Part shown: positions 1,987 through 61,048 of the stretch, one piece after another
How the letters are laid out: every line of letters starts with the position of its first letter
How positions within the stretch are numbered: the first letter of the stretch is position 1
Source: Chryseobacterium indologenes
GTDB lineage: Bacteria; Bacteroidota; Bacteroidia; Flavobacteriales; Weeksellaceae
Direction of reading: 5' to 3'
DNA: 64,000 nucleotides
NCBI GenBank assembly: GCA_016025055.1
Contig: CP065590.1
Coordinates: 3,782,001-3,846,000 of the forward strand
Translations under genes and position numbers: made by a program
The notes under the pieces: generated by a model
What the model was told of the DNA's origin: nothing
Database searches by the model: none
What the model saw: the letters and a program-made list of their open reading frames with translations, nothing else

Positions 1987-4349
1987 ATGAAAAAGCTTCT
2001 GATCTTCTTAGCTATAGTTTTCTCTTTTACCATCCAATCTCAGCAAAGAAACGATTCCCTGACTATCGCACTCCAAAATGTGACCAAAGACACCAAGTTT
2101 GGCCTTGCGTTGAGTGGAGGGGGTGCCAAAGGCTTTGCGCATATCGGTATTTTAAAAATGATTGATTCCCTGGGAATTAAGGTAGATTATATCACCGGAA
2201 CAAGTATGGGGGGAATATTAGGGGGATTGTATGCTATGGGATATAATGCCGATCAGCTTAAACAAACAGTTTATAAAGTTGACTGGAACAGGATTCTCAG
2301 TAATAAAGTTCCTTACAGCAAAGTCAATATCAGTGAAAAAGACGAGTATGACAAATATATTCTGGAATTTCCCGTCGTAAAGGGAATACCAACGCTTCCC
2401 AGTTCTTACATCGAGGGACAATATATGGGAGAGGTGTTGAACACGCTTACCTTTAATGCAAAACATATCAATGATTTCAGTAAGCTACGTATTCCTGTTG
2501 AGCTCACCTCTTCCGATATTGAAAACGGTGGATTGATTATGCAGAAAAAGGCTCTTTACCGCTGGCGATCCGTGCTACATTAGCAATACCGGCAGCCTTT
2601 GCTCCTGTTTATATCGATGGAAAACTCCTGGTAGACGGAGGGTTAGATCGGAACTTTCCGGCCCATGAAGTGCAGCAGATGGGTGCCGATTTTGTGATCG
2701 GAGGCTACACCGGTTTCAGACTTTTTACCAAGAAGGAGATGGAAAATCCAATGAAAATGATTTACCAGACCCATGCCATCCGCTCTGTGGAGGATTTTAA
2801 ACATCAAAAAGCTTTATCAGACATTATGGTGGATTTTGTAGACCCTCTGGGGGATATTACAACGAAAGATTTTGCCAAATACAGAAGAATCATCAAGATC
2901 GGAGAACAAGAGGCAAAGAAACACCTTCCTGAGTTCATAGCGTTGGCTGAAGCCCAGCGTAAATTGGGAATTACCTACGATCATACAATGATTGAAGAAG
3001 TAAAGCTACCCACTACAAAATTTACCTTTAATGAAGAAGATGGAAGCCCTATCAAAGATGCTGCTGAAGTTGAGGTGATCAAAGGGCAACTGGAACTTGT
3101 GGAAGGGAAGTATTATGATGTGAAAACTGTAAATGCAGCCATTGACAGAGTATTCGGGATGCGCCAGTATGAAAAAGTATATTATACGTACACCAACGTC
3201 AATGATGAGCTTACCATGAATATTTTTGTGAAAAGAGCAAAAAAAGGAGCCTTTAAACTTGCCCTTCACTATGATACGGAACAATCTGTCGGGATTATTG
3301 TCAACTATACCTACAGGAATATTTTGCTGAACAGATCCAGATTTTTGGCAACGGTGGATATTTCGGAGCGTTTTAAAGCAAGAGTTGCATACCAGCAGTT
3401 CTTAGGCACCGGAGACCGTTGGTGGTTTGATATTGAAGCAAAAATGATTCACCTGAAGAGTAATGACTTAACATTTAGATTTCTCGATGTCAACGGAGAA
3501 GACGGCAGTGCCAGATTTCCCAACCACATCTACCGAAATATAACAGGGAAAATTGCATTGAATTATAACATTAATCCTAATGCTTTCCTTTCTCTCGGAA
3601 CAGAATTCAGTGTTGAGAGGATGTATAGTTTACTGGATAAGGTAGATCAGGCAAAATCAGATACTTACAACAAAAAGCTTTATAATCACAGTAATTTCAA
3701 TACGTTTTTAAAATTTGAACAGAATAATCTGAACAAAAGATATTTTTCGTCCAGAGGAAATCATCTTCAGGTAAGTACAAGGTTTTATTACGGAGATCAG
3801 TATCAATTGTATGATCTGGAAAAAGTACAGCCTCAGTTATATCCGATCCTGAATCCTAAAGATCCGGATTATTATCAACCTAAACACCTGGTTTCATTTA
3901 CGCTTAATGAAAATTATGCTCATCCGATAACCAGAAGGCTGGCTGCAAAAATCAACCTGTTTCTGGGGGCCAATTTCGGTTCCGGGAAAGACGAAACACC
4001 TTACCTGTTTTTGAATCAGAAATATAATCTTGGCGGAAGCGAATATAACTATGATTTACTAAATCCGGAGTTTAACGGGCTTCGTCAAAAAGAGCTTCCT
4101 GTAACCTCTGTCGCTAAAGCAGGAGTGTCTTTCCAATACAGAATTATGAAAAGGCTTTATCTTACCCCTTCTTTGCAGTATAGTGTAGTAAGTGATGACC
4201 TTTCCCCGTTTAAAAATAACTTTAATATCTTGGGGTATGGTGCTAATCTGGGGTATGAATCTTTATTAGGACCTATCAGCATGAATATATCCCGGAATGA
4301 TTTCCTTAACTTCTGGAGGATATATTTTAGTGTCGGATTTAAATTTTAA
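1987..4349 (+). pseudogene. Patatin-like phospholipase with C-terminal outer-membrane barrel, frameshifted
   Basis: The first segment (1987-2583) has a signal peptide (residues 1-19), the patatin glycine-rich oxyanion loop GGGAKG (44-49) and the nucleophile motif GTSMG with Ser73. It stops early. The second frame continues from about 2550 with GSLPLAIRATLAIPAAF and then VDGG, which holds the catalytic Asp of the Ser-Asp dyad. It goes on through a POTRA-like stretch and a beta-rich BamA-like domain ending in aromatic YFSVGFKF. The break lies in the A5 run at 2545-2549; one extra A restores a continuous protein of about 787 residues. This is the architecture of surface-routed patatins (PlpD-like). 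It is probably intact in the organism; real inactivation cannot be excluded. Confidence 0.85.
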
Positions 4350-4571
4350 CCAAGAAGGGAAGTTTAAAGCAGGAAGTTTTAAAAGATAAGCAAAGGATGG
4401 ATGATAGTGTCAGTTACAGGAAGATTAATTCGGAAACAGGTCTGGAGTAGGAAAGCCGGAAAAAGGGAAGTCTTTCAAAGTAGGAGAATATCTTAATTGA
4501 AATAATGAGTAAAAATGACTTCCCGATGTTTTTTTTCTGATAGCGACTGCCGGCCTCCAGCCCATGTTCAT

Positions 4572-5708
4572 TTATTTCCTGGGAATTTCCGGTCGTGGCA
4601 TTTTATAATAGCTTCCGGACATACTTTTTAAAAATGCGACAATGGCATCCGTTTCCTGCTCATTCAGGTGTAAAGGTTTCATCAGCGGATCGGTTACCGG
4701 AAAGTTGGGATCCGCCTTTTTTTCTTCAGGAGCAGGATTGATCATCTGCATGCCGCTGTTGTACAAATTGACAATACCATGCATATCATCCATCAACCCG
4801 TTGTGCATCCATGGTGCGGTATACATAAGGTCTCTGAGAGAAGGGGTTTTGAATTTCCCGACATCCTTAGAGTTTTTTGTTATATGATACAATCCAAGGT
4901 CTTCATATTCACGCTTATAATAGGTAAGTCCGATATTGTGGAAGGATTCATCGCTAAGATACTTCCCGTAATGGCAATTCATACATCTTGCTTTGGTACG
5001 GAATAAGTGCATCCCATAAATTTCTTTGTCACTCATTGCTTTATAATCTCCTCCGATAAATTTATCCAGCTTGCTGGGCTGGCTTCGAATAGTTCTTTGA
5101 AAGGTAGCTAATGCACTGGCGATTTTGTCGAATGTAATCTTATTGGTGTGGTACACGTCTTTAAAAAGCTGTCTGTATTCCTTAATTTTTGACAGTTTTC
5201 CGCCTAGCTTTTCCGGTTTCATATTCATTTCATTGTGGGCAGAGATCGGGCCTATTAGCTGTTCTTCAAGGGTTTTGGATCTGCCGTCCCAGAAGAATGA
5301 TTTTCTTTCTGCGATATTGTAAAGAGACTGTGTATTTCTTTTCCCCTGCAGATGGTCATTTCCCAAAGCAACTTCCTGTCCGTCACTCCAGCCCAGTTCA
5401 GGATTATGGCAACTGCTACAGGAAATCTGACTTGATGAGGATAATTTAGGGTCAAAAAACAGCTTTTTTCCCAGCATTACTTCAGGAAGCTCCTGGGTAT
5501 CATAGTAATTGGAGTCCCAATCTATAGCTTCAAATTCTTTCCAGCTGATACCGGAGTCTATTGAAGGTTCAGGCCAGTATTTTATTGGCTTTTTATACTG
5601 TTCCACTACTTCTCCATAATCAACACTGTATTTTTGTATGGTGTGTTGCATGAAAAAAAGACTGATGACTCCGAGTAGTAATAGTAATTTAAGATCTGAA
5701 AATTTCAT
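4572..5708 (-). CDS. Di-haem cytochrome c peroxidase (MauG/CcpA family)
   Basis: A 378-residue protein with an N-terminal hydrophobic export segment (residues 7-20) and two c-type haem sites, CSSCH (97-101) and CMNCH (242-246), in the usual spacing of bacterial di-haem peroxidases. Such enzymes reduce hydrogen peroxide, or in MauG-like members oxidise a protein substrate, in the periplasm. It is the last gene of a minus-strand series; its ATG is 10 bases past the stop of the DUF6850 barrel gene, so co-transcription with that gene, the DUF4876 lipoprotein and the TonB receptor is likely. That context suggests redox handling of an imported metal or haem compound, which is inference. Confidence 0.9.
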   Translation of the reverse strand: MKFSDLKLLLLLGVISLFFMQHTIQKYSVDYGEVVEQYKKPIKYWPEPSIDSGISWKEFEAIDWDSNYYDTQELPEVMLGKKLFFDPKLSSSSQISCSSCHNPELGWSDGQEVALGNDHLQGKRNTQSLYNIAERKSFFWDGRSKTLEEQLIGPISAHNEMNMKPEKLGGKLSKIKEYRQLFKDVYHTNKITFDKIASALATFQRTIRSQPSKLDKFIGGDYKAMSDKEIYGMHLFRTKARCMNCHYGKYLSDESFHNIGLTYYKREYEDLGLYHITKNSKDVGKFKTPSLRDLMYTAPWMHNGLMDDMHGIVNLYNSGMQMINPAPEEKKADPNFPVTDPLMKPLHLNEQETDAIVAFLKSMSGSYYKMPRPEIPRK

Positions 5709-5718
5709 GTTTTTTAAT

Positions 5719-7230
5719 TTAAAAAATGCCTCCTATGGTGGCTGAAAACAGCATATTACTGCTATTGTTAAAGTTGCTGTACATCATTTTTCCTCCTACA
5801 TACGCATTCTTTATAACCGGAAAGTTGAAATGAAAATTAATGTCAAGCTTAGCCTGCCAAAAGTCTGATGACTGATAGTGATAATTTTCCTGCAGCATCT
5901 GATTAATGGATGCTTTACCGGAATTATTAAAAACCGCATTTTTCTTATATACATCCGTTACAGAAACACCAAGAGAAACCGAAAGAGCAAGATTGCTGTC
6001 AAAGGTCTTCAGCCATTGGTAGTCTGCGCCATACATAAGTTTATTGAGGGCAATACTTGAATACGGATTGTTGTACTTTTCATTTTCCCGTATAAAGCCT
6101 ACAAAAGGCAATAAAGATGATTTTACATGAGCGTTTTCCATCTGGAGAAGTCCTTTAAAAATCCCGTTCGTTATCTGGTGGTTGTATCTTTCTACAGAGC
6201 CTATCCGGATATAATTCCTTGAATTTTCATTTAAAAAAGATTCTCGGTTCCCTTTCTTTCAGTATGGCTTCCATCCAGAAAAAGGCCCCAGGATATCTTA
6301 TTTTGCTTAAAAAATTTTCCTGCTGAAAAAGTAAGCTGCTGTTCATTAATTTTTGACGCATTCAGATCCGCATACTCGGTAAGAAGTTTGTCGAGACTGA
6401 ATTTTCTGATTCCGGCTGAAAGATACCAGTTTCTGTTTTCGGCTTCAAATAACTGGAGCTCAGCTCCGTATGACCAGCCTTCATAATAGGCCTGCCGAAG
6501 CTTTCCGGAAAGCAATTCATTATAATTGCCCAATCCGCTCATATTGTATATCATCGGGAAGCCTTGATTGCTGACAAAGCTCAGGTAGTGCTTCTGCGTA
6601 TATTTTTCTGCATTCAGGGAAGCTCCGACCTTAAATTTTTGAAACACCAAAGCATTGGCTCCCAAAGCTAGGGAGAAACTGGCCGTTGTATTTTTAGGCC
6701 TTGGATCCACATCACGATAGCTTAGACTCGCCTTGTAGTTCCCGGTAATCCCAACGGTGAAAGAGTGTAATGCCTTTGAATATCCTCCTGAAAATATATA
6801 ATTCTCAAACCTAAGATCACCTCCCACACTGTCTGCGGCTACGTAAGGGTAGATGAGGTCATAATCGGCATTCTCATTCCATATTACCCTTTTATTTTTA
6901 CCTTGAGAATAGGATGCATGACCCCAAACTACTGTTTCAGGATTTAGAATTTGCAGGGTACGGGCCTCCGCACCCCACAAATTACTTCCTTTTCCTTTTT
7001 GCTGAATCTCGTTAGGCGTATCATTATTTTTTTGAAAACAGGCTGAATGTGGTGATACTGTATTTTCTGGCTCCCAGAGTGTTGGAGGGATTTACCGTAA
7101 CCTTATCTTTAAACAGCCGTTCGCAGCTATATTCCTCATGTACTTTCTCAATGATGCCGTCATTGATCTGTGCATGAAGGGATGAGGTTATGAATGACAA
7201 AAGAGCAGAGACGGGTAGGAAATATTTCAT
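5719..7230 (-). pseudogene. DUF6850-type outer-membrane beta-barrel protein, two frameshifts
   Basis: Three consecutive frames together give one secreted barrel protein of about 500 residues. The first (7024-7230) has a signal peptide ending near SLHAQ. The middle (about 6234-7020) carries alternating beta-strand sequence. The last (5719 to about 6230) ends in aromatic GGIF, as outer-membrane barrels do. The first break is a T7 run at 7027-7033 (one base too many); the second is an A6 run at 6233-6238 (one base too few). With both corrected the joins read FSKNNDTPNEIQ and NLFLNENSRNYIRIG. The start codon directly follows the stop of the DUF4876 gene. I assign the family from memory of such loci, not from a search. 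Confidence 0.7.
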
Positions 7231-8451: not shown

Positions 8452-8471
8452 AACGTATAAAATTTAAATTG

Positions 8472-11266
8472 TTATAAATTGAAATTGATTTCCATCCCGA
8501 AATAAGGATCATGAGCGCCCTTCCTGTTGATGGTAAACCCATTGATATTGTAAGGCGCATAGTAACTGAACAGCCTGTTTGCGAACATTGAAATTACAAC
8601 TGCTTTATTCCGGAAGCTTTTTGTTACCTTGAGGTTAAGATTCATTTCCATAGGTCTTCTCGAGGCATTGTACAGATCATTATTCTGAGCGATGATCAAT
8701 CTTTCAAGAAGAGTTCCCTTCGCGGTCTCAGGATGGAAAGGATAAATATTACCGTTGGGATCCACATAATGACTCGGTACACCGCTCATGGGATCGAGTT
8801 TTCTCATAGAATACCACGAAAACTGAAAAGAGGAAGAAAAAATCAGGTCCAGCTTTGGGATGTAAGTGTCCAGCATCAGATTGGTATTCAGAACTTCGTT
8901 TACAGAGTTGGGTTCCATTCCATCATACAGCCCGAGATAAGGATAAGGTTTTCCGTTGATAGATATATCATGACCTCTGTATACGGGAAGGCTATTTCCG
9001 TACCGGGTTTTGAACCATGCTCCGTTCAGGGTAAAACGGGTATTGATTTTCGGAATTCTGTTTGAAGAATACTGAAATTCTATTCCTTCCTTATCAATGG
9101 TACTGCCGTTTCGTTGAGCAGAATAGATGAAGTTTTCGTTAATATTCTGATAGGGAAGTGCATCGACATCCGGCGGAGAAGTTATGCTGCCATGATCAAG
9201 CCCTGATGTATCGTATTTTTTGTACTGATACACCGCATATTCGTTCATGGAACGGAATGCATTGTTCATATTTTCCTTAAAAACAGTGACTGACAACTGA
9301 TGTAATCCCAGGTTGAAATCTAATCTTGCTTCAAATTTTTCATTCACGGCAGGTTCTATTTCAGGATTCTGTGGGTTGTAGATCATCGTTTTATAATTGA
9401 CTCTTCTGTAATTGGGATTGTCATGAAAATAATTAAGTTGCTGAACATCTTTGTAAATAAGTTCAGGATATAAAAGATTGAGGTCAGGGAATAAACTTTG
9501 TTTACCATAACCAAGGGTCAGTGCAAGTTGTGACTTTTGATTCAGAAGGGTAAATGAAGGAAGGTTCCATTGAAGATTGACCCGCGGATCTGCATACACT
9601 TTTCCATGCATTTTGAAATAGGAAGGGATATTCATCATAGAATTACCCCGTAGTCCGAGAGCTAATGTAAGCGTATGCTTTCCTATATCTGCAGCGCTTA
9701 TGGTCTCGAGGAAGGCCGCTCCAGTACTGTAAGCGGGAATATCACGATATGCTCTTGGCCTGAACGTAGATTTGGGGTCAATAGGTTTGTAGATGTCAAA
9801 TAATTGCCCTTGTCCCCAGTTTTTACTCAGTTGCCAGTCAAACCCTGTATTGATCTCTGTTTTTACTGATGTAACGGTAAACCGGAAGGTATTGATCATT
9901 TTAACGAACAGATCCAAAGGTTTTCCATCCACGATATAATCAGAAATATAGCGTGCTTCCGGATAATAGCCGTCATATTCTCCTTCCGTTCTTGATAAAG
10001 GGAAAGCAGTGGCATTTTCCAGCTGGATGAATTTCGTCTGTTTTATTTTATCCAACCTTTGATTGATGGTAGCCTGAACTTCCGTTGATCTGTAAAATGA
10101 AGGCTCATTTTTGGTGTAGGTGAAAAGGTTGGAAAGACTGAAGAGGTGATTATTGACTTCATATGAATTGAGCTCTGACAAATCTATATCGGGATCAGAT
10201 TTTGATCCGTCCAGAGAACCTGTGTAGCTAAGATTGGCTTGCCATCTGGAATTTCCATGATCATGTTTCTTTTCTTTAACCAAAGCAAAATTTGTTGTGA
10301 TTCTCTTGTAATTTTCCAATCGGTCCCTTGGATCAGATTTAGCATTTAAATAATCAATGCCGAGGTTGATTTTCAGGTCTTTATCTTTATTTTCAAAACC
10401 CTTGTTTACTGCAAAAAGTTTACTGTAACCATCTGCTTTAAATCTTGCATTCCATCTGGTTTGTCCTGATTTATTGGTGATCTTCACAATTCCCGAAGTA
10501 AGATTTCCGTACCTTACAGAAGGAATTCCTCGAAGAATTTCTACTTTTTCGATCTGATCCGTTGAAATACTGCGCATATCTACACCGCTTGTGATGTTCA
10601 ATCTCCTTTTTAAACCGGTATTGGTCTTATCTGTAAAATCATAGGTATATTGAAGGTTGGCTCCCGAATTTAAAGGCGCACCGTCAACCAGAAAGGTCGT
10701 TCCCATGGCAGACGTATTGTAATCGCTGCCGGGATTTCCTGTTTCCCGAAGGCTTATTTTATTGACCTGATTCATGACTGGGTCTGTGGATCTTCCACCC
10801 GGTAACAATTCCAGAAGGTCAGTGAAACTGGAAGGCTGTAAATGCTGCATCGCACGTTGACTGATAACAGATGATGAGGTCAATCCTTTGCTTTCTTTTG
10901 CCGTAATAATCACTTCTTCAATATTATTCACATTCTCCTTAAGGGAAAACTTAAAAGTATCAGGTTGGGTAACCTGTATCTTTCCGGAATATTGAACATT
11001 ACCTTTTTACGTATTTCTATGGCATATTCTCCCGGACTAAGATGTACTGCTGCAAACCCTTTTTCATTGGAAAGGATCGAATACTTCTTCTTGCCGGACG
11101 AAAGAAAGATTTCATAATCTTTAAGGGGGCCGGAGTGGGAATCCTGTACTTCAATGAAAACAGATACGGATCTTTCCTGAGAATTAACGGTCGTCAGTGC
11201 AATAAAGAAAAATAAAAAAGTAAAAAATTGAGATCTGGAGGGAAGGTATTGAGCATGGTCTGCCAT
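8472..11266 (-). pseudogene. TonB-dependent outer-membrane receptor, one frameshift
   Basis: The 5' frame (from 11266) encodes a signal peptide ending near VNSQ and a carboxypeptidase-regulatory-like beta domain. The remainder (8472 to about 11000) holds the plug domain, with EEVIITAKESKG near its start and VDGAPLNSG, and a long barrel ending in MEINFNL. The break is in the T5 run at 11004-11008; one more base joins the parts as RKKGNVQYSGKIQVTQPDTF, giving about 930 residues. Receptors of this class import metal complexes, haem, vitamins or oligosaccharides using TonB-ExbB-ExbD energy. There is no SusD-like partner, but a DUF4876 lipoprotein, a barrel protein and a di-haem peroxidase follow. 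The substrate is unknown; iron or another metal is my guess. Confidence 0.85.
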
Positions 11267-11284
11267 CGTGCATTATTCTTTCGG

Positions 11285-17009: not shown

Positions 17010-17149
17010 TTTGGGGATGTATTTTTTTAGTTTTTTCTGATTTTTTATGAAATATTAATGCGAAGATAGGGCTTCTAACCCTTAAAAATAAAAGAAAAAT
17101 TAAAATATTTGTGAATGTAATGTTAATTATATGAAAAAAATATATTTTT

Positions 17150-29590: not shown

Positions 29591-30444
29591 TTACTTAATA
29601 ATTCTGTCAAGTACCCAGGTAATCAGGTTTTTTTCAGACGCATGGTGATCTGCGGAGAATTCTCCACGTCTTCTGTTGGCAATAACATTGTTTACCGTGA
29701 TTGCTTTATGCCCTAATAATTTTGAAAGAGCATAGATTGCAGAAGTTTCCATTTCAAAATTGGTAATTCCAAGATCATTTAATGTTTCTAAGAATTGATC
29801 ATCCACTGCTTTCAGACGAAGCTGTCTCCCCTGTGGTGCGTAGAATCCGGGGAATGTCGCTGTATTCCCGTGGTATTTGGCATCCTTATAATATTCACCC
29901 ATTTCCTCTGCCCAGTCAGAGAAGTAAAGCATAGGCTTGATTCTTTCGTACGGGAATCTCTCTAAAAAGCTTTTGGAGAACTCATTCTCAAAGTTATAAT
30001 CCTGATAGAAATGCATCAAACCGTCTAAACCTACTACATTTTGTGTAACCAGCATATTGTCTACCTGCACATCAGGGTTTACACTTCCGCAAGTTCCCAT
30101 ACGGAATAGCTCAAGCGCTTTATGTTCTGTTTTGAATTCTTTGTTCTTAAGGTCGATATTCACCAAAGCATCCAGTTCGTTCATTACGATATCGATGTTT
30201 TCGGTACCAATACCTGTCGACATTACCGTAATTCTTTCTCCACGAAGGGTTCCTGTATGGGTATAGAATTCTCTTTTATTTTTTTGATCTCTACTGTATC
30301 AAAATAAGTTGAAACTTTTGCTACTCTGTCCGGATCCCCTACAAGAATAATTTTGTCGGCGATATCTTCAGGTAAAAGGTTCAGGTGGTATACACTTCCG
30401 TCTTCATTCAGAACGAGTTCTGAGGCAGCAAGTTTATTAAGCAT
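29591..30444 (-). pseudogene. Nucleoside phosphorylase (uridine phosphorylase-like), one frameshift
   Basis: The start chosen is ATG 30444 (MLNKLAASELVLNEDG). The 5' frame carries the phosphate-binding GDPDRV motif; the 3' frame (from about 30278) has TGTLRGERITVMSTGIGTEN, FRMGTCG, and NFEMETSAIYAL, the signatures of the PNP/UDP phosphorylase superfamily. The break is in a T7 run at 30279-30285; one more base gives KKNKREFYTHTGTLRGE, which fits the family, for about 284 residues. The enzyme splits nucleosides with phosphate into base and ribose-1-phosphate for salvage. The damage is probably a sequence error, since both halves are otherwise perfect. Confidence 0.88.
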
Positions 30445-33161: not shown

Positions 33162-35316
33162 ATGAAGAAAAAACTACTAACAGTTGGTGCTCTGGCTTTA
33201 TTTGCAGGGACTACCATTCAGGCCCAGACCCTAATCTTTGACAAAGGGGCCGCCTGGAGCTACAAAGACAACAATCAGGCACAACCGGATGCCTGGAAAG
33301 ATAAGACCTATGATGTGTCTTCATGGGCAACTGGCAACGGGCCATTAGGGTACGGAGATCCTGTTACTACAGCCATCAATACAGGGCTTACTACAGCTTA
33401 TTTTGCAAAAGACTTTAGTGTAGATCTGTCTACACTTTCAGACAACATGGAGCTTGGGGTAATGAGAGATGACGGCATTGTCGTGTATCTTAACGGGGAA
33501 GAAGTAGTACGTGACAATATGCCTGCAGGCACTATTACATTCAACACTTTCTCCAGTACAATAATCGATGGTGCAGCAGAGAATGTATACAATATCTTTT
33601 CTATTCCTAAATCAAAATTTGTAAACGGAGTGAACAGAATTTCTGTGGAACTGCATAACAGAAGTGCAACGAGTTCAGACCTTAGAATCGATGCTTATCT
33701 GAAAACAACGCCCAATACCACAACACCGGTAGCTTGTAACAGTACGCATATCAGCTGCTTCACTTCAATTGTTCCTACAGCACAAACCAACAAACTGATT
33801 ATTCCTGCTGAGCATAAATATCAGCTTATCTTAAAAGAAGGTGATAATTACACAGAAGGTGGAGGTTTAGTAGGAGGGCAGAATGACTTCACCGGTTATG
33901 TGGCCAAAACAGGAAGCAGTACAAACGGATACCTTTCCGTGAACCATGAAACAAATCCGGGAGGAGTTACCATGGCAGAAATCAACTATAATGCTTCAAC
34001 AAAACTTTGGCAACTGACGCGTTCAAGAGCAGTAAGTTTTTCTGATCCAAGTTTAGTACAAACAATCAGGAACTGTTCGGGTGGAGTGACGCCTTGGGGA
34101 ACCATCGTGACAGCAGAGGAATCTGTGACCTCCAATGATGTGAATGGTGACGGTTATAAAGATTACGGATGGCTGGTAGAAATAGACCCTGCAACGGCTC
34201 AGGTTATTTCTAAAAATGCTAACGGAACAAAAGGTAAGCTTTGGCAGATGGGGATCATGAATCATGAAAATGTCGTGATCAATCCTGCAGGAACTGTTGC
34301 TTATTACGGGGAAGATGGAGGCACCCATATGGTATATAAATATGTAATGGATACTCCAAATGATCTTTCCTCGGGTAATCTTTATGTTTTGAAATTAGAT
34401 CAGGGATTAACCACTGCTGGAGATCCGGTAGGAACTACTGCTACATGGGTTCAGGTCCCTAATAAGGATAAGGCAGATCAAAACAATACAGCAGCACAGG
34501 CGTTATCAGTAGGAGGTACAAAATTTAACGGAGTAGAAGATGTGGATATAAGTCCTCTGGATGGAAAAATTTACTTTACAGCTAAAGGTTTAGACAGAGT
34601 ATACCGTTTACAGGATAACGGCACTACTGCTTCCCAGGTTGAAACATTTGTTGGGGGAGCTTCTTCCGTATATTCTTTCAATACTGCTCAGGGAATGAAG
34701 TCTGAGGCCTGGGGAGACGGAAACGATAATCTTACTTTCGACGAACTTGGAAATCTTTGGGTCCTTCAGGATGGTGGTAAAAACTATATCTGGGTAATCG
34801 CTCCCGATCATACACAGGCAAATCCTAAAGTAAGACTATTTGCTTCCATGCCGGCCGGTGCAGAACCTACCGGACTTACATTTACGCCTGACCATAAATT
34901 TGGTTTCTTCTCTATTCAGCATCCAAGCTCTACGATTGCTACAGATGTTGATGCAACAGGAAATACCATAGATTATAGGGGAAAATCAGCAACAATCGTT
35001 ATTGCACTTAAAAACAACTTGGGAATAGAAGGTTCTTTAGGAACAATTGAAAATAAAACGACTGAAAATACTGTAACAGTAGCTCCCAACCCAACGTCAG
35101 GGATAGTGAAAATCAATTCTCCGAAAGGGTTAAAGGATATTTCCGTTACCGCGTATACGATGGACGGAAAAATCATCTACACGAAAAAAGTTTGCCGGAT
35201 CAAATAAAGCATTGGATCTTGACTTTACCAGTGAGCTGGAAGTTTCCAGAGTTTTGATTTTAAATATCGAAGCAGAAGGAGGTTTCCAAAAAACAGTTAA
35301 ACTTTTAAAAAAGTAA
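33162..35316 (+). CDS. PhoX-like (DUF839) secreted phosphatase with T9SS sorting domain, frameshift near 3' end
   Basis: Starting at ATG 33162 there is a signal peptide (MKKKLLTV to IQAQ), a beta-sandwich domain (to about residue 185), then a PhoX-type beta-propeller with the signature NCSGGVTPWGTIVTAEES and HENVVINPAGTVAYYGEDGG. PhoX enzymes are calcium- and iron-dependent phosphomonoesterases. The uncorrected frame stops at 35207, but an A6 run at 35184-35189 minus one base gives KKFAGSNKALDLDFTSELE and continues to the stop at 35316, completing a type A T9SS sorting domain ending KTVKLLKK. The product is about 718 residues and is predicted to be exported to the surface. Catalytic activity is inferred from the family. 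Confidence 0.87.
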
Positions 35317-39554: not shown

Positions 39555-39995
39555 ATGTTAAATAATAAAAAGATTGCTGTTGACTTTGACGGAACTATTG
39601 TAGATGATGCTTATCCGGCAATCGGGAAACCAAAAACTTTCGCTTTTGAAACCTTAAGAAGACTCCAGGCAGAGGGATATAGATTAATTCTTTGGACTTA
39701 CAGACACGGAAAAACTTTGGATGAAGCAGTAGAATTCTGCAAGCAGAACGGAATAGAATTTTATGCTGTCAATTCAAGTTTCGAAGGAGAAGTTTTTGAT
39801 GCTGAAAATCAATCCAGAAAACTGGATGCGGATCTTTTCATTGACGACAGAAACTTAGGCGGGTTTCCGGGGTGGGGCGAAATCTATAATATCATCCAGG
39901 AAAGAATAGAATTCCGTGTTGAAGGAAAAGAAGTTCTGGCCTATTCAAAAATAAAAAAGAAAAGAAAAAAGGACTTTTCTGGTAGAATAAAATAA
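39555..39995 (+). CDS. BT0820-like HAD-family hydrolase
   Basis: 146 residues with the HAD motif I DFDGTI (9-14), motif II in LILWTYRHG and an acidic motif IV in DLFIDDRN. There is no cap domain, as in the short BT0820-type phosphatases of Bacteroidota. A basic tail (KKKRKKDFSGR) ends the protein. The substrate is unknown. The next gene, map, starts 73 bases downstream and could be read through from this promoter because no terminator lies between. Confidence 0.85.
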   Translation: MLNNKKIAVDFDGTIVDDAYPAIGKPKTFAFETLRRLQAEGYRLILWTYRHGKTLDEAVEFCKQNGIEFYAVNSSFEGEVFDAENQSRKLDADLFIDDRNLGGFPGWGEIYNIIQERIEFRVEGKEVLAYSKIKKKRKKDFSGRIK

Positions 39996-44052: not shown

Positions 44053-44856
44053 ATGCACAAAGCTGGATTTGTAAATATAGTTGGAAAGCCCAATGCCGGA
44101 AAATCAACACTGCTTAACCAATTAATGGGAGAGAAGCTGGCGATTGTAACGCAGAAGGCTCAGACAACACGTCACAGAATTTTTGGTATTTATAACGAAG
44201 AAGATCTTCAGATCGTATTTTCAGATACTCCCGGAGTACTGGATCCTAAATACGGACTTCAGGAGAAAATGATGGATTTTGTTAAAGACTCATTACAGGA
44301 TGCCGATGTTTTCCTGTTTATTGTAGATGTTACCGATAAAGCGGAACCTTCAGAATTTCTGATTGATAAATTAAACAAAATTCCTGTACCTGTACTTCTT
44401 TTATTAAACAAAGTAGATCAGACCGATCAGGCAGGCCTTGAAAAACTGGTTGAGGACTGGCACAACAGAATTCCAAAAGCTGAAATTCTTCCCATTTCCG
44501 CATTGAATGCCTTTAATACGGAAATTATTTTACCTAAAATTAAATCCTTACTTCCCGAAAGTCCTCCATATTATGATAAAGACCAATTTACAGATAAGCC
44601 TGAAAGGTTTTTTGTGAATGAGGCGATCCGTGAAAAAATTCTTTTAAATTATGATAAAGAAATTCCTTATTCTGTAGAAGTCGTTACTGAACAGTTTAAA
44701 GAAAAAGAAGGAATTATCTTTATAGATTCTATCATCTATGTTGAAAGAGATACCCAGAAAGGGATTATCATCGGGCATAAGGGAGAGGCGATCAAGAAAG
44801 TAGGAACTGATGCAAGACTGGATCTTGAAAAATTCTTTTCAAAAAAATTCACTTAA
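44053..44856 (+). CDS. era: GTPase Era
   Basis: 267 residues from ATG 44053, the family start (MHKAGFVNIVGKPNAGKS). The G-domain motifs are G1 GKPNAGKST, G2 with TTRHR, G3 DTPG and G4 NKVD, and the C-terminal KH domain contains GIIIGHKGEAIKKVGTDAR. Era binds 16S rRNA and acts in 30S ribosome assembly. The open frame continues 89 codons upstream, but its sequence is unlike Era and contains the promoter. Confidence 0.97.
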   Translation: MHKAGFVNIVGKPNAGKSTLLNQLMGEKLAIVTQKAQTTRHRIFGIYNEEDLQIVFSDTPGVLDPKYGLQEKMMDFVKDSLQDADVFLFIVDVTDKAEPSEFLIDKLNKIPVPVLLLLNKVDQTDQAGLEKLVEDWHNRIPKAEILPISALNAFNTEIILPKIKSLLPESPPYYDKDQFTDKPERFFVNEAIREKILLNYDKEIPYSVEVVTEQFKEKEGIIFIDSIIYVERDTQKGIIIGHKGEAIKKVGTDARLDLEKFFSKKFT

Positions 44857-45585: not shown

Positions 45586-47988
45586 ATGAAGATAAAACTG
45601 ACTATTTGCCTTCTGGCATTTCTCAATTTCTACGATGCACAGGAGAATATTACTTATCAAAAACCTTCCTCAGAAATCCTGAAACTGGCTGACTACCAAA
45701 GACCGCCAAGTGTCATGATGAACAATAAAAAGGACTGGGTGGTTTTTACCTACCGACCGACTTATAAAACACTGCAGGATCTTAGTCAGCAGGAAATGAA
45801 ACTGGGTGGACTAAGAATTAATCCTGTTACCAATATTGCAAGTACTGCAACATATTTCAATGATTTGAAGATCAGAAAGATCAACGATAAAAATGAAATA
45901 CAGGTAAAAAATATGCCTGCAGATGCGAAGATCACCTACATTTCATTTTCACCGGATGAAAAAAAACTGGCTTTTACCAATACAACCACTAAAGGAGTGG
46001 AGCTTTGGGTGATCGACTTGGAAAATGCATCTGCAAAAAAAATATCTGAAGACAACCTGAATGCTAACCTGGGAGTGCCGTATTTATGGGCTAATGATTC
46101 ACAAAGTTTATTGATTAAAAAACTTCCTCAAAACAGACCTGCACTAATTGATGCGAGCAAAGATTTGCCGACAGGACCAATTGTTTCTACTGCTGATGGA
46201 AAAGTGTCTCAGAACAGAACTTACCAGGATCTTCTGAAGAATCCTCAGGATGAAAAAAACTTCGAAGTTCTTACCGCTTCAGAAATCAATAGCGTAGATT
46301 TTAACGGTAATCAGAAAAAACTAAAAGATCAGGATATGTATGCCAACCTGAGTTTTTCTCCAGACGGGAACTACCTGCTCGCTACAGTTTTTAAAAAACC
46401 GTTTTCCTATATCGTTCCACTGGATCGATTTCCTATGACGACCACGGTATACGATAAAAATGGGAATACGGTAAAAGTCGTAAACGAAGTTCCCCTGAAT
46501 GAAATTATGCCAAAGGGTTTTTCTTCGGTAAGAACAGGAAAAAGGGATATGACATGGAGAAACGATGCACCGGCAACATTAGTTTTTGCTGAAGCGCGTG
46601 ATGGCGGTGATCAGCATAAAAAAGCAGAATACAGAGATGAGATCTTTACCTGGGAAGCACCGTTTACAGCTGCTCCAAAATCTTTTTTTAAGACCAAGCA
46701 AAGATACGAAGATGTAGAATGGACAAACGATCATTATGCCATCATTTCAGAAAGCTGGTATGATACCAGAAATACTAAATCTTTCCTGGTCGACCTTAAT
46801 AACGGAGAATCAAAGGTAATCGATGATAGAAATTCTCAGGATGTTTACAGTGATCCGGGACATTTTAATACCGTCAAAAACCACTATGGAAGAACTGTTA
46901 TAGATATGAAAGGCGGAAAAGCGTATCTGATTGGGGCAGGGTTTACTAAAGACGGTCAGCATCCTTTTATTGATGAAATGGATGTGAAGTCATTGAAGAA
47001 GAAAAGATGGTATACTTCAAATCTTAAAAATGCTAAAGAAGCTATTGTTGATATTTTAAATCCTTCAAAAGGAGAAATTTTAACAACTCAGCAGTCGCCG
47101 AGCGAATATCCGAATTATTTTAAAAAGAGCATCAAATCCAATAAAGTACAGGCTGTAACCCATTTTGTCAATCCTTTCGAAAGTATGAAGGATGTGTATA
47201 AAGAAGTGATTACTTATAAAAGAAATGACGGGGTAACGCTGACGGGCACACTTTATCTTCCTGCTCACTATGACAGAAAGGCGAAAACAGAAAAACTTCC
47301 TTTACTGATCTGGGCTTATCCGAGAGAGTATAAGGATGCAAATACTGCCGGGCAGAGTACGCAGAATCCCAATGATTTTACATTTCCTTACTATGGATCT
47401 TTTGTTTATTGGGTAACAAAAGGCTATGCTGTTTTGGATAATGCTGCTTTCCCAATTATCGGAGAAGGAAAAACAGAGCCTAATGATACTTTTCTTACAC
47501 AATTGGTGGCGAATGCTGATGCCGCAATCAAAGCAGTAGATCAATTAGGATATATCGACAAAAAGAAGGTGGCTGTAGGAGGACATTCATACGGAGCCTT
47601 TATGACGGCTAATCTGCTGACGCATTCTGATCTTTTTGCCTGTGGTATTGCCAGAAGTGGTGCGTATAACAGAACATTGACACCATTCGGTTTCCAAAGT
47701 GAGCAAAGAAATTATTGGGATGTTCCTGAAATTTATAACACGATGTCGCCGTTTATGCATGCAGATAAGATGAAAACACCGCTTCTTCTGATCCATGGTG
47801 ATGCAGACAACAATCCGGGTACATTTACATTGCAGACAGAAAGATATTTCCAGGCTCTGAAAAACCTCGGAGCTCCGGTGAAGATGGTGCTTCTTCCAAA
47901 AGAATCCCACAGCTACCAGGCTAAAGAAAATATCATGCATGTTTTGTGGGAGCAGGACCAGTTCCTTGAAAAATGTCTGAAAAAATAA
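45586..47988 (+). CDS. S9-family prolyl oligopeptidase-like exopeptidase
   Basis: 800 residues. A signal peptide (1-18, ending FYDAQ) precedes a beta-propeller-type region (about 30-530; SFSPDEKKLAFT, LSFSPDGNYLLATV) and the C-terminal alpha/beta hydrolase. The catalytic Ser668 lies in GGHSYGAF, the Asp in LLIHGDADNNPGT and the His in ESHSYQ. Such enzymes cleave dipeptides or acyl-peptides from short peptides in the periplasm of Bacteroidota. It is a single gene with a terminator directly after it. No good promoter match was found. Confidence 0.93.
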   Translation: MKIKLTICLLAFLNFYDAQENITYQKPSSEILKLADYQRPPSVMMNNKKDWVVFTYRPTYKTLQDLSQQEMKLGGLRINPVTNIASTATYFNDLKIRKINDKNEIQVKNMPADAKITYISFSPDEKKLAFTNTTTKGVELWVIDLENASAKKISEDNLNANLGVPYLWANDSQSLLIKKLPQNRPALIDASKDLPTGPIVSTADGKVSQNRTYQDLLKNPQDEKNFEVLTASEINSVDFNGNQKKLKDQDMYANLSFSPDGNYLLATVFKKPFSYIVPLDRFPMTTTVYDKNGNTVKVVNEVPLNEIMPKGFSSVRTGKRDMTWRNDAPATLVFAEARDGGDQHKKAEYRDEIFTWEAPFTAAPKSFFKTKQRYEDVEWTNDHYAIISESWYDTRNTKSFLVDLNNGESKVIDDRNSQDVYSDPGHFNTVKNHYGRTVIDMKGGKAYLIGAGFTKDGQHPFIDEMDVKSLKKKRWYTSNLKNAKEAIVDILNPSKGEILTTQQSPSEYPNYFKKSIKSNKVQAVTHFVNPFESMKDVYKEVITYKRNDGVTLTGTLYLPAHYDRKAKTEKLPLLIWAYPREYKDANTAGQSTQNPNDFTFPYYGSFVYWVTKGYAVLDNAAFPIIGEGKTEPNDTFLTQLVANADAAIKAVDQLGYIDKKKVAVGGHSYGAFMTANLLTHSDLFACGIARSGAYNRTLTPFGFQSEQRNYWDVPEIYNTMSPFMHADKMKTPLLLIHGDADNNPGTFTLQTERYFQALKNLGAPVKMVLLPKESHSYQAKENIMHVLWEQDQFLEKCLKK

Positions 47989-50980: not shown

Positions 50981-52358
50981 TTAATTGGTTTTTATCTGTG
51001 GGTTCTGTTTAATCCTTTTAGCGGACATATTCAGGAACCGCTTTACGAGGAATACGGCAGATATCGTCAGTCCTAATCCAAGGGCTATCCACATTCCGAA
51101 AGCTCCCATTTTCAATGTTACGCAGAAGAAATACCCTAAAGGAATGGTGATCACCCAGTAGGCGATAAAGGTATAAATTGACGGTATCTTAACGTCCTGC
51201 AATCCTCTCAGCATTCCCAATGCTGTAACCTGAATTCCGTCCGAAAGCTGGAATAAAGCAGCAATAATCATCAGTTTTGAGGCCAGGGTAATTACTTCCA
51301 CCTCTTCCTTTTTGGTAAAGAAAGTTGGCAGTATATTTCTGCCCAGGATGAATACCAATCCACAGATACACATGAAAATAAATGCAATCTTCAGGTTGTT
51401 GATTCCCACTTTTCTCAATTCGACGAAATTCTGTTCACCCAATTTTCTTCCGATCATTACCGTAGATGCAACACTGAATCCAACACAAAGGTTGAATGTG
51501 AATGAAGCCATGCTTAAGGCGATCTGGTGAGAGGCAATGTCGTGAGCAGAAATCAGTCCGCAGATAAATGCAGCTCCTGCAAATGCCGTTACCTCAAAGA
51601 ACATTTGTAAAGCAGTAGGTAATCCCAGTTTTACCATCTTATCAAACATTTTTTTAGAGAAATCCTGTATTTTTAAAGAAAAATCTTTGATATATCTTCT
51701 GGTTCTTTCTTCTTTAACCATTACAAAATAAAGGAAGACAACCATGAAAATTCTGGAAATCAGTGTAGCCAACGCAGATCCTTTGACTCCCATCGGCGGA
51801 ATTCCCCAAAGCCCCTTGATAAATACGTAGTTCAGGGCGATGTTGATAATATTGGCAATAATGGTAGCCTTTGTAACGCCAATCGTATAAGACAAACCTT
51901 CAGATACCTCACGAAGCGTCTGGAAAGCCATGAACGGAATCATGCTTACCACCATAATACTTAAGAAGCTTACCGTATCCGGAATAATCTTGGCAGGCTG
52001 CCCTGAATGGTAGAGCAGAGGCATTCCCAGCAGCAGGATGGCCATCAGGATAACCCCCACCGACATATTGATTACAAAACCATGACTGAACACGGAGTTT
52101 ATGGTAGCGTGGTCCTGTCTTGAATGGGCTTCCGAAACCAATGGTGGTATCGCAAATGAAAAGCCAAGGGCTAATACAAATATTGAGAAAAATACAGCAT
52201 TCCCCAATGACACAGAGGCCAGGGCATCGGCACCCAAAAGTTGTCCGACAATAATATTATCAAATAAATTCACTGAAACCTGCCCCACCTGGGTAAGCAT
52301 CACAGGCAGAGCCAAAGTCAGGCATTCTTTAGTGTAGTTTTTGTTTAAAAAAGCTCAT
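50981..52358 (-). CDS. MATE-family multidrug efflux transporter, frameshift at the 5' end
   Basis: About 458 residues with twelve predicted helices in two homologous halves, and the MATE signatures ALPVMLTQVGQVSVNLFDNIIVG and GWNLGxxx-like GLQDVKIPS. The main frame is intact from 52315 but has no ATG at the family position. The ATG at 52358 gives the expected MSFLNKNYTKECLTLALP only if the A6 run at 52347-52352 (T6 on the coding strand) is one base shorter. These pumps expel cationic drugs or metabolites using sodium or proton gradients. Substrate unknown. The frameshift is probably a sequence error. Confidence 0.88.
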
Positions 52359-52433: not shown

Positions 52434-52457
52434 ATAAATATTGTAAATAATAGTGTA

Positions 52458-53642: not shown

Positions 53643-53647
53643 AGTCG

Positions 53648-53655: not shown

Positions 53656-53698
53656 AATTTTTTGTTTCAATTATTAGCAAAAATCATACCTAAAAATT

Positions 53699-54358: not shown

Positions 54359-54421
54359 AGATGCAAATTTCCGAAAATTAGTTGACAGTACCAGCTATGA
54401 ATACATTTCTTTGGCATTAAA

Positions 54422-55281
54422 TCAATTCAGGACCTCATTGATTTTAGGATATTGTGAAATCTTTCTGAAGACAAACTTGTTGCTTTTCTGGAGCTTTTCT
54501 ATAAACATATCAAGCTCGTTGATAGAATCTGTATCTCTCAGGTATTGATCGTGAGTCAGGAAAACCAAATGTCTGGACGTTTTTTCCAGGTCATTAAGGA
54601 AGATACTGTCAATTTTCTTCAACATCGCTTCATGGCTGCCTTTTAAAGTCATTTTCTTTGACGGCCTCCATTCAAGGTCCCAGCCGATTACCTTATAACC
54701 GGCATTTTTCAGTCGATTAGCGGCTGCGGTGGAACTTTTAATATCGGTTACATTAATATTATTAAGTCTCCAGATATTTCTTCCCGGCGTTCTGGCAATT
54801 TTATCAGAAAGTTTCAGGCTGTCTTTAGCAATATCAAAATCATGAACAACTGCCTCGGGATTTTTATAGAAATCCGAATACTTGTTGTGCGCATGCGTAA
54901 AGCTGTGATTGGCAAGTTCAACCAGGGGATTTTGTTTTAAAAGCTCAAAATCATTCTTCTGCTTTGTACTTCCATAGGTATGTTTGCCTACCAGAAAGGC
55001 GGTAGCGCATACATTTCTTTTGTTTAATATTTTTAAAAGGTTTTCTGTACCCTGATTTGGGCCGTCATCAAAAGTAAGATATATTACTCTTTTATCCGAA
55101 TCTGTGTTTTCATCATCTATCTTGGGGACTGCTTCTGCGGTAGGATGTTCTTGTGAATATAAGTTTTCTTTCACATCATTCTTGAAGTTACAGCTGTTCA
55201 ATAAAAATGAAGTTGCACTCACCAATGCAAACATCCCGAGAAAAGTCTGATTTTTTGACTTTTCCGCAAAATTTTTTTCAT
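54422..55281 (-). CDS. Polysaccharide deacetylase lipoprotein (NodB domain), possible 5' frameshift
   Basis: The NodB catalytic motifs are present: TFDDGP (metal-binding Asp), HSFTH and RTPGRNIWR, with a late catalytic His in FLTHDQ. The enzyme probably removes acetyl groups from a GlcNAc polymer in the envelope. The frame is open back to a TTG at 55327, but the ATG at 55281 would give a normal lipoprotein start (MKKNFAEKSKNQTFLGMF to LLNSC) if the T7 run at 55272-55278 were one base longer. Without that change the start is unclear; an ATG just before the signal sequence is another choice. Substrate inferred from family. Confidence 0.85.
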
Positions 55282-55570
55282 AAAGATAATGGCGTTTTGT
55301 TTTGTTAAAAATCGTTAAAAATAACAATTGAATGTTAACAAATTATATGCCATGTCTCCTTATTATTTTCCTTTTTAAGCTTATTTTAAGAACTCTGTAG
55401 TAAGGAAATCTTTTATTAATCTGTAGATTGTGATTTTATATTTTTGAATCTTTAATTCTTAACATTTATAAATGTCAAAACCATAGTTATTCTCTATATA
55501 TGTTGCTGTTTTGTTATTTTCTTTGTTTTAGAGAATTATTTTATTTTAACATATTGGTAATATAAATACC

Positions 55571-56299: not shown

Positions 56300-56303
56300 A
56301 CTG

Positions 56304-59152
56304 TTATTTTATATCCAGATCCACCGAATTTAATCTCAATGAATTAAGGATCACTGAAAGAGAACTGAAACTCATAGCAGCTGCAGCAATCATTGGTGAG
56401 AGAAGTATTCCAAAAAATGGATACAATAATCCTGCCGCAATCGGAACTCCCAATACATTATAAATGAAAGCAAAGAATAAGTTTTCCTTAATGTTTTTAA
56501 GAAGTTTTTCACTTAGTAGCTTTGCTTTTGCAACTCCCAGGATATCGCCTTTCAATAAAGTGATTTCTGCACTTTCAATGGCAACATCAGTTCCTGTTCC
56601 CATAGCAATTCCTACGTTGGATTGTGCAAGAGCAGGAGAGTCATTGATTCCGTCTCCGGTCATTGCCACAATTTTCCCTTGTTGCTGAAGTCTTTTTACT
56701 TCATTCAGCTTGTCTTCGGGAAGGCAATTGGCTTTAAAATGCTTAATTCCCAGCTCGTCTGCAACTGCTTTTGCGGTGTGTTCATTATCTCCTGTCATCA
56801 TGATGACGTCAATTCCTTCACTGATCAGCTGTTTCACCGCTTTTTTTGAGCTTTCCTTGATTTTATCGGTAAAGCTGATAAATCCTAATACATTCTGATC
56901 CTGTGCGATATAAGAGATGGTGTGGGCTTTGGATTGTACTTCTACCGCTTTTTGTTGTAACCTTTCCGGGATCATAATCTGATGTGAAGTGAGCAGGCTC
57001 TCATTTCCCAGATATGTCATTTTACCGTTGATATTTCCTTTGACTCCTTTTCCTGATATATTTTCAAATTGTTCTACCTTTTCAGAAGAGATATTTTCGT
57101 CCTTAGCTCTTTTAATGACAGCATTTGAAAGCGGATGTTCAGAATTTTGGTTCAGAGAGTAGGCTAGCTTTATGATCTGATTTTGTGCTCCCGAATCCGT
57201 CACTTCAATATATTCTACAGACGGTTTTCCCTCGGTTAAAGTTCCTGTTTTATCGGTGATCAGAACGTTTACTTTATTCATTTGTTCCAGGGCTTCGGCA
57301 TTTTTAATGAGAATACCGTTTTTGGCTCCTTTTCCGATTCCGACCATTAAAGACATGGGCGTTGCCAGTCCGAGTGCACATGGGCATGCGACAATTAAAA
57401 CGGCAACCGCATTTACAAAAGCAAATAAAGTTCTTTTTCCTTCCGGTCCGAAAAATTGCCATAAAACGAAGGTAAGTGCAGCGATGAGGATCACAGTAGG
57501 CACAAATACTTTTGAAACCTTATCCGTGAGTTTCTGGATTGGGGCTTTGCTTCGGCTGGCTTCATTCACCATTTTAATAATTTGTGAAAGAAGAGTTTCT
57601 TCACCTACTTTTTCAGCCTTCATGATGAATACCTGATTACCATTGATGGTACCTGAAGAAACTTTGTCATCCACATTTTTTTCAACGGGAACGGGTTCTC
57701 CGGTAATCATACTTTCGTCTACAATAGAATTACCCTCCGTAATCTTTCCGTCCACAGGAATTTTTTCTCCGGGTTTTACTTTTAAAAGATCCCCGATTTT
57801 TACCTGAGAAAGCAAAACTCTTTTTCTTCGCCATTCACAATAAGATTGGCTTCGTCCGGAGAAAGATTCATCAATTCTTTGATCGCATTTCCTGTTTTTT
57901 TATGGGCTGCAGCTTCCATCAACTGCCCTAAAATAACTAAGGTAAGAATCACACATACCGCCTCAAAATACAAAGGGATTTCATGATTGTGTCCGCGGAT
58001 TTCATGAGGAATAATATCCGGGAAAAACAGTGCTGCTATGCTGAAAATAAATGCAGCAGCCACCCCAAGGGCAATAAGACTGAACATGTTGAGATTCCAG
58101 GTTTTAAAAGAAACCCAGCCCCTTTTCAACAGGAACCATCCGGAATAAAACATGACCGGAAGTGTTAAGGCTAGCTCGATAAAGCCCTGAATCTGATGAG
58201 AAAACGGAAAGTCAATAAACATTCTACCCATCGAAAGAAAAAAGACCGGAATCGTGAATGCTAATGAAATAGTGAATTTTCTTTTTAATATATTGTAGGT
58301 TTCATCTTCTTCGTCGTCACCGCTGTCGGGCATTCTTACAAGATCCATCCCGCAGATAGGGCAGCTTCCCGGCTCGTCGCGGATAATCTCCGGATGCATC
58401 GGGCAACTGTACTTAGCGGTTTTCTTTTCCGGGTATTTTACAAGGTCCATCCCGCAAACAGGACAGCCTACGTTTGAATCATATGTTTTATCACCTTCAC
58501 AATACATCGGGCAGTAATATCTTCCGGCCATTTCGTCGGTAACTTTAGGCGCTTCATGGTGGTGGCTGTGAGTATGTGAGTGTGAGTGTGAGTGACTTGT
58601 GTCTGCATTTTTGATAAGATCTTCAGTGATCTCTTCCAAATGCATGTGACATACAGGACAATCTCCTTTTTCGTCATATACTTTATCTCCTTCACAGAAC
58701 ATAGGACAATAGTAATTTCCTATATGGTCTTTAAAGTTTGCGGGAAGATGGGTTGCGGAGTACGTAGGTTTATGATTCGGGTCTTTTTCAAGTTTTTCTT
58801 CAATCGGAACGAGATACATTTTACATACCGGGCATCTTTCTCCCTGTTTGAAGTATACTTTTTCACCTTCACATTCCATTGGGCAATAATAGACGGAGGA
58901 AGGGGATACCCGATCCTGAGGTTTTATGAAAGCTTTTTCCGGTGCACCGGGATCTTCGAGTCTGTATTTTCCTGCTTCTGACAGAGCATTATTGAGTGCA
59001 GATAGTTCTATTTCATGATCAGAAGTGATGGTTGCGGTATTGTTTTCAAGATTCACGTCGGCTTTAATGCCCGGCACGCTATTCAGCTGATTGGAGATTT
59101 TTTTCTGACAACCTGAGCAGGTCATCCCGAGAATTTTATACTGTCGTTCCAT
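56304..59152 (-). pseudogene. Copper-type P1B ATPase with HMA domain and four metal-binding modules, one frameshift
   Basis: The 5' frame (57800-59152) begins with an HMA domain (GMTCSGC, Cys12/Cys15), then four repeated YYCPMxxE...CPxCxMxL modules near residues 88-115, 147-173, 211-237 and 247-272, with a His-rich linker at 186-199, and the first membrane helices. The 3' frame (56304-57815) supplies TGEP, the metal-transport motif CPC, DKTGT phosphorylation site and [10 protein letters not shown]. The break is a T5 run at 57821-57825; one more base gives [16 protein letters not shown] and a product of about 949 residues. It should export Cu(I) (or a related ion) from the cytoplasm. An HMA-AraC regulator lies just upstream. 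Confidence 0.88.
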
Positions 59153-59320
59153 GATTCTAAATTTATACTACAAAGGTCCAAAATGGAAATCTAAGGTTGT
59201 TATAAATTTAAGGATAATAGTTATAAAATTTAGATCGCTGAATGTTGGGGTGGGAGAATGTTAGAGTGGGAGAGTTAAGTATTAGATACAACTCTCCGAA
59301 TCTCGTACTCTTCAACTCAG

Positions 59321-59881: not shown

Positions 59882-60273
59882 GCTCCGGTATTTAATCTGT
59901 CTTTTACAAATTCTATTTGTGTCTTACCGTGAGGAGCCGGATTGCCATCTGCATCGAGATTGACCATGACAATTTTCTCAACGGTAATAATTGTTTGGTG
60001 GGTCATCTTGTTTCGGACGTCGCATCTTAACGTCACTGATGAGGAACCAAAATGAGTGGCTTCAATTCCTATTTCTATAATATCTCCCTGTTTTGCTGAA
60101 CTTACGAAGTTAATTTCAGAGATGAATTTGGTGACTACTTTGGTATTTTCCAACTGGATGATGGCATATAACGCTGCTTCTTCGTCAATCCATTGTAAAA
60201 GTCTTCCTCCGAAAAGTGAATGGTTTGGATTTAAATCTTCTGGTTTTACCCATTTTCTGGTATGGTAGTTCAT
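59878..60273 (-). CDS. Acyl-CoA thioesterase (YciA-like hotdog fold)
   Basis: 131 residues from ATG 60273; a TTG at 60297 lies within the promoter element and is rejected. The hotdog fold shows LNPNHSLFGGRLLQWIDEEAALYA, FISEINFVSSAKQGDIIEI and FGSSSVTLRCDV, matching YciA-type enzymes (Asp/Glu in the central helix). It hydrolyses acyl-CoA in the cytoplasm. It heads a two-gene unit with the AraC-HMA regulator, an unexpected pairing. Confidence 0.88.
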   Translation of the reverse strand: MNYHTRKWVKPEDLNPNHSLFGGRLLQWIDEEAALYAIIQLENTKVVTKFISEINFVSSAKQGDIIEIGIEATHFGSSSVTLRCDVRNKMTHQTIITVEKIVMVNLDADGNPAPHGKTQIEFVKDRLNTGA

Positions 60274-60294
60274 ATATATTACTAATTTGTTGTG

Positions 60295-60302
60295 CAAATT
60301 TA
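60295..60302 (-). promoter_or_regulatory. -7 promoter element of the thioesterase/AraC operon
   Basis: The minus strand reads TAAATTTG, matching TAnnTTTG, ending 21 bases before ATG 60273. Confidence 0.6.
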
Positions 60303-60370
60303 AGCTTAAAAGCTGATGTTTTCAATAGAATACTATGTATTGATCTGAAGAGAATTATTTATTTTCTCAA

Positions 60371-60784
60371 TCATTTTCTTTTGGAGCGCATTGCTTTTGT
60401 TTTTACCACAGAAGAATCTGTTAACAGTTTCCGGTATTCTGTACTTTCTATTGGGATTAAAGCTACTTTTCCTTCTGAATTATGATGAAATCCAAATCCA
60501 TATCGTTTGGCCAAAGGAGAGGACCGGAGGCAAGCCTGACCTTTGGAAAAGAACTTTTGTCTCTCTTCGTCTTTTTCATTTTCAGAAATATCATTTTTTA
60601 TAGCATAGCATTCAAAAATAATATCATCGGAAGAATATCGGTAGGGATTTTTGATGATTTTTTCATATTGTAGGCCTGCTACTGTTTTTTCTTTCTTTTC
60701 AGGAGGTATTTGTGCATGATTAACAGGGCAGTCTTCTGATACCTCAATGAATGTGTTGATGTAATTGGTGGTATGTTTTTTCAT
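60371..60784 (-). CDS. DUF6157 family protein
   Basis: 137 residues with the family blocks TTNYINTFIEVSEDCPV, IKNPYRYSSDDIIFE, FFSKGQACLRSSPLAKRYGFG and the ending KTKAMRSKRK. No signal peptide or membrane segment; no catalytic site is known to me. It is encoded alone, 61 bases beyond the stop of the XRE regulator. Confidence 0.82.
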   Translation of the reverse strand: MKKHTTNYINTFIEVSEDCPVNHAQIPPEKKEKTVAGLQYEKIIKNPYRYSSDDIIFECYAIKNDISENEKDEERQKFFSKGQACLRSSPLAKRYGFGFHHNSEGKVALIPIESTEYRKLLTDSSVVKTKAMRSKRK

Positions 60785-60845
60785 GGTAATAGATCAGATA
60801 ATAAAAAATCCGAATCACAAAGATCCAGATTTTTATATATAATTT

Positions 60846-61048
60846 TTATTCTTTATACTCTAAAATTTCACCCGGCTGGCAGTCCAGTGCTTTGCAAATG
60901 GCTTCAAGGGTACTGAAACGCACGGCTTTTGCTTTTCCGGTTTTTAAAATAGACAGGTTAGAGAGTGTAAGGTCTACTTTTTCAGACAGCTCATTTAATG
61001 ACATTTTTCTTTTGCCATAATCACATCTAGATTTACTATTATCGGCAT
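60846..61048 (-). pseudogene. XRE-family transcriptional regulator (YozG-like), one frameshift
   Basis: The region is 203 bases, one short of a whole number of codons. From ATG 61048 it reads MPIIVNLDVIMAK, then the frame breaks; the next frame continues with RKMSLNELSEKVDLTL, SNLSILKTGKAKAVRFSTLE and AICKALDCQPGEILEYKE to the stop at 60846. The join is a T4 run at 61010-61013 that should be T5. The protein is a 67-residue helix-turn-helix of the type regularly encoded after DUF2975 membrane proteins, and its ATG is 4 bases past that gene's stop. It is probably intact in the organism; the damaged frame hides it from simple gene finding. Confidence 0.82.

Follow-up and report, generated by a model that had tools for sequence, protein, structure and literature searches.

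Do the single-base frame breaks scattered over this locus record genes that the strain is losing, or are they mistakes in the sequence as it was written? The window, i.e. the whole stretch of 64,000 bases analysed here, comprises bases 3,782,001-3,846,000 of one contig of 4,920,726 bases (completeness 97.24%). An initial annotation had listed ten such breaks, in unrelated genes and all at runs of A or T. In this study, we conclude that the breaks are almost certainly mistakes, an ordinary artefact and not a real feature, because breaks of the same kind also split genes that the cell cannot live without.

Our evidence comes from comparison with related genomes, in which every sequence was left as written. 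A 3.2-kb stretch found matches in 60 of 60 Chryseobacterium genomes, with a nearest full-length match of 88%, and the top named match of an 800-aa ORF (45586-47988) among the best 80 of 578 relatives was Chryseobacterium phosphatilyticum, at 91%. The whole window (1-64000) was searched for tRNA, for tmRNA and for Rfam families above the gathering score, and none were found.

Every one of the ten runs has the position, base and length that had been reported, and at each of them the window is one base off all or most of the aligning relatives. The DNA alignments agree with the proposed split into seven runs that need one more base and three that need one fewer. Alignment with proteins of relatives, which had been suggested as a check, reveals a junction of two frames at eight of these runs (2545, 6233, 7027, 11004, 30279, 35184, 57821 and 61010), and the proteins of the relatives continue beyond the junctions on the far side. 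Seven of these eight junctions are seen among close relatives alone; the one at 11004 comes from a single relative. The breaks at 52347 and 55272 concern no more than a short N-terminal part; there the proteins gave no junction, and the DNA alignment is the sole basis. The ten breaks fall in nine genes and are listed here with the numbers of relatives that differ from the window, which are not numbers of independent strains, since named relatives and genome handles may overlap.

2545..2549, plus strand: gene assigned by Pfam matches of its two pieces to patatin-like phospholipase / Omp85, about 788 aa long in relatives; one base off at 5 of 5 loci.
6233..6238, minus strand: second break in a DUF6850 gene (504-514 aa in relatives); 3 of 3 loci differ.
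7027..7033, minus strand: first break in the same DUF6850 gene as 6233; narrow test mixed, 7 of 7 in the wider test.
11004..11008, minus strand: large gene broken near its N-terminus (932-945 aa stop-to-stop in the closest relatives), presumably a TonB-dependent receptor; one protein junction, narrow test mixed, 9 of 9 when the test spans 15 bases and 10 of 10 with 14 bases either side.
30279..30285, minus strand: nucleoside phosphorylase-family gene (284 aa in relatives); 6 of 6 differ.
35184..35189, plus strand: PhoX-family gene (717 aa in relatives) broken near its C-terminus; narrow test mixed, 18 of 21 in the wider test, the remaining three relatives being two with no difference and one with a difference of four.
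52347..52352, minus strand: MatE-family transporter gene broken at its very start; 82 of 85, and 80 of 82 when the test spans 15 bases.
55272..55278, minus strand: polysaccharide deacetylase gene, with the run in its start region and its body still open; of 77 loci, 65 are one base off, nine two bases and one three bases, the last two showing no difference, and 75 of 75 relatives differ when the test spans 15 bases and a genome counts once.
57821..57825, minus strand: heavy-metal P-type ATPase gene (951-959 aa in relatives); 40 of 41 differ.
61010..61013, minus strand: short ORF, stop-to-stop length 76 aa in a relative, next to a DUF2975 gene; 10 of 10, with a protein junction at four loci.

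Although every one of the ten was seen, their number had been understated, at least twelve breaks being present. Two further genic runs and one run between ORFs were absent from the earlier list.

44841..44847, plus strand: Era-type GTPase gene (domains MMR_HSR1 and KH_2); 72 of 72, with a protein junction.
39953..39958, plus strand: 146-aa ORF without a Pfam family, broken near its end; 66 of 67, and 67 of 67 in the wider test.
17134..17140, unstranded: run between ORFs, also one base off; 5 of 5 relatives in the wider test.

The run at 44841-44847 is the best-supported break in the window and deprives its gene of the last part. With its MMR_HSR1 and KH_2 domains we take this gene to be Era; it has one match in the whole genome. 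The length of the stop-to-stop frame gives no sign of a break (357 aa as compared to 313-393 aa in relatives), and the evidence therefore consists of the protein junction and the DNA alignment.

Whether a dozen such sites are many was judged against other genomes. As a control set we used 80-kb stretches of five relatives, treated with the same pipeline as the window. Stop-to-stop ORFs were rejected as queries for this purpose: they gave 2-3 apparent junctions per relative (n = 5) and seven in the window, with false junctions arising out of antisense and upstream frames. They were replaced by DNA-level private indels within ATG-trimmed genes of the relatives. An early list of in-frame stops, mainly antisense and upstream noise, was also left unused. 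For the window count, at least two in-gene relatives and half of the support were required, and other rows were excluded. On this strict count the window contains 10 private frame-changing in-gene indels in 56,540 coding bases, all of them one-base; the total becomes 12 with 7027 and 35184, which failed these thresholds and come from the wider test (14 bases either side), a test not applied to the relatives. The five relatives together have 6 one-base indels in 282,690 coding bases, plus 10 rows of 2-8 bases (window against relatives: odds ratio 8.3, p 5e-5). With non-coding sites included, there are 16 private frame-changing indels in the window as compared to 3, 3, 8, 4 and 4 in the relatives.

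The same excess is found elsewhere in the genome. Matches to RNA polymerase beta, to ribosomal S11 and to class I tRNA synthetases served as anchors for six 20-kb stretches, whose counterparts were taken from five relatives; here the filter was three in-gene relatives and 60% of the support, other rows again being excluded. The six stretches contain 18 private frame-changing in-gene indels in 82,640 coding bases. Sixteen of these are one-base, including four from L162, a stretch chosen after a shortened valyl-tRNA synthetase had been noticed; all loci of the four single-copy synthetases in that search were included. In the counterparts of the relatives we counted 1, 3, 2, 3 and 1 one-base indels, a total of 10 in 412,380 coding bases (odds ratio 8.0, p 3.5e-7). 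Hence the assembly breaks genes at about eight times the rate of related genomes in the same pipeline, and the window does so at the same rate as the stretches elsewhere (12 per 56.5 kb and 16 per 82.6 kb, p 0.85). The claim that unrelated genes are hit is borne out: the breaks are indifferent to function and affect housekeeping stretches at an equal rate. The window is representative of the 4.92-Mb contig as a whole.

The breaks are bound to homopolymers. Each of the 16 one-base events found elsewhere has a run of at least 4 no more than 5 bases away (0.39 expected at random, p 2.6e-7), and 11 of the 16 are at runs of at least 5 (0.16 expected, p 4e-6). Among the A/T runs in window ORFs, 1 of 836, 3 of 345, 4 of 112 and 4 of 30 are broken for lengths 4, 5, 6 and 7, respectively, so that the broken share rises from 0.12 over 0.87 and 3.6 to 13.3%; none of the seven A/T runs of 8-9 in window ORFs is broken. 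The written run is short rather than long by 9 to 3 in the window and by 13 to 3 elsewhere. An overall shortening of long runs was considered and is not supported, the A/T run-length spectrum being like that of four relatives. All ten reported runs indeed consist of A or T, but this is no evidence of cause. It is explained by base composition, since A or T accounts for 612 of the 629 runs that are at least five bases long. Of the events elsewhere, two of 16 are at G runs; one is at a run of 9.

The genes affected outside the window decide how the breaks are to be read. When the proteins of one relative were compared with the six stretches, 14 of 85 were spread over more than one frame; with a 100-aa cut-off the figures are 14 of 81 for that relative and, in the other four, 14 of 82, 14 of 73, 12 of 76 and 11 of 78. 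The 14 include ribosomal L14, SecY, valyl-tRNA synthetase, sigma-54 and another sigma-70-family factor, as well as an M23 peptidase and glycoside hydrolases of families 35 and 97. Ribosomal L14 is present as a sole copy, which the family search recovers as two pieces in different frames (residues 1-57 and 50-122), both 100% identical to a relative. The frame of valyl-tRNA synthetase measures 740 aa as compared to 877-889 aa in seven relatives. L14, SecY, valyl-tRNA synthetase and Era are needed for bacterial life. As L14, SecY and valyl-tRNA synthetase are broken and the strain is alive, such breaks cannot be real, and nothing observed sets the breaks of the window apart from them. Three further genes of this genome, outside the window, have frames that are short in comparison with relatives.

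G000:C1:526316-527158: 415 aa, 907-948 aa in relatives.
G000:C1:2977640-2977843: 787 aa, 1133-1151 aa in relatives.
G000:C1:4138119-4138967: 342 aa, 473-474 aa among the matches listed.

Judged from the assembled sequences, the breaks would, with very high probability, be one-base homopolymer-length errors in the assembly consensus and not gene loss. A homopolymer-prone sequencing or assembly method had been put forward as the most likely cause, and the observations strongly support it, in that the breaks are private, bound to runs, rise with run length and split essential genes. One-base length errors of this kind would be left behind by sequencing or consensus building in which runs are miscounted, and the reads would be expected to contradict the written run lengths.

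The relatives show that an occasional break may be genuine. Their background of private one-base indels is low (0-2 per relative in the 80-kb stretches, 1-3 in the counterparts of the six stretches), and one or two sites of the window could therefore be real. We attach a small chance to one or two breaks, e.g. those of the DUF6850 gene, being real switching or young inactivation inside an error-rich assembly.

The initial annotation had considered true decay and programmed slippage less likely, and neither is supported. In favour of true pseudogene decay, in which the strain would be losing genes with slippage at runs as the first step, many genes do carry a private break, and runs are natural indel hot spots. 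Decay is nevertheless very improbable as an account of the breaks, given that housekeeping stretches are hit at an equal rate and that essential genes such as L14, SecY and valyl-tRNA synthetase are not spared; for L14, the split of the sole copy speaks against decay of that very gene. Moreover, in-frame stops, which decay should produce alongside frameshifts, are nearly absent. The window shows none against four of the five relatives and one doubtful stop against the fifth, and in the stretches elsewhere one in-frame stop site (L165) is indicated by five relatives and one site (L161) by one relative.

It is a shade less probable again that a few breaks represent switching states of phase-variable genes. 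The obvious candidate is the DUF6850 gene, which is broken twice, at runs of 6 and 7, but its relatives have no broken state at these runs, and the share of broken runs matches that of same-length runs in other genes. Runs of 6-7 are also short for known switching tracts.

Least credible of all is an explanation proposed for genes of Blochmannia and Buchnera, namely real frameshifts that slippage in transcription or translation makes good: there is a precedent in Blochmannia vafer, where, according to an excerpt of the report, eight genes, some of them replication genes, carry frameshifts in homopolymeric tracts and may be slippage-corrected (PMC3017870), but the breaks of the window are at runs of 4-7 while 1,311 A/T runs of 4-7 in its ORFs are unbroken, the relatives are without the breaks, and the two events at G runs do not fit transcription insertions, which, as given in an excerpt on E. 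coli and Buchnera, were measured in runs only at A or T (PMC5574713). As far as the excerpt allows comparison, our assembly shares with Blochmannia and Buchnera the one-base frameshifts in A or T runs, with information-processing genes included, but its runs are shorter (4-7 in the window, about 9 or more there) and its breaks are unshared with relatives, whereas those of some genes there are shared between species (PMC3017870). Nor are the breaks here restricted to A/T, and the genus studied here has genomes of 3.5-6.2 Mb.

Errors of the consensus, on the other hand, have close parallels. Long-read-only bacterial assemblies usually retain homopolymer errors that frameshift genes, as stated in an excerpt of PMC8812927, and in the Kastor example pseudogenes decreased from 23.3 to 5.6% after correction (excerpt of PMC12007338). 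Within the scope of these excerpts, our case, for which the assembled sequence alone was used, resembles such assemblies (PMC8812927, PMC12007338) both in its one-base homopolymer indels, with the run mostly too short, and in the frameshifting of all kinds of genes, including essential ones, with a large apparent pseudogene share. It differs from long-read-only assemblies in that its long runs are not shortened overall, and the broken fraction of 14 of 85 here compares with 23.3% pseudogenes before correction in the excerpted Kastor example (PMC12007338). A literature search on sequencing errors in Chryseobacterium, at the level of listings, found no paper.

For users of this assembly the consequence is practical. 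Gene-content work on it would score roughly one gene in six (14 of 85) as broken, indispensable ones included, and at a uniform rate of about 0.2 per coding kb the errors would reach some 800-900 genes genome-wide. The biological interest of the breaks is low, but they are a useful warning on this assembly. They also offer a cheap check: a split in a sole ribosomal protein gene together with an equal break rate in housekeeping stretches tells that breaks are not biology.

The in-frame stop in L165 that the proteins of all five relatives indicate (L165:2386-3975) counts against the artefact reading, in that a run-length error is no explanation for it.
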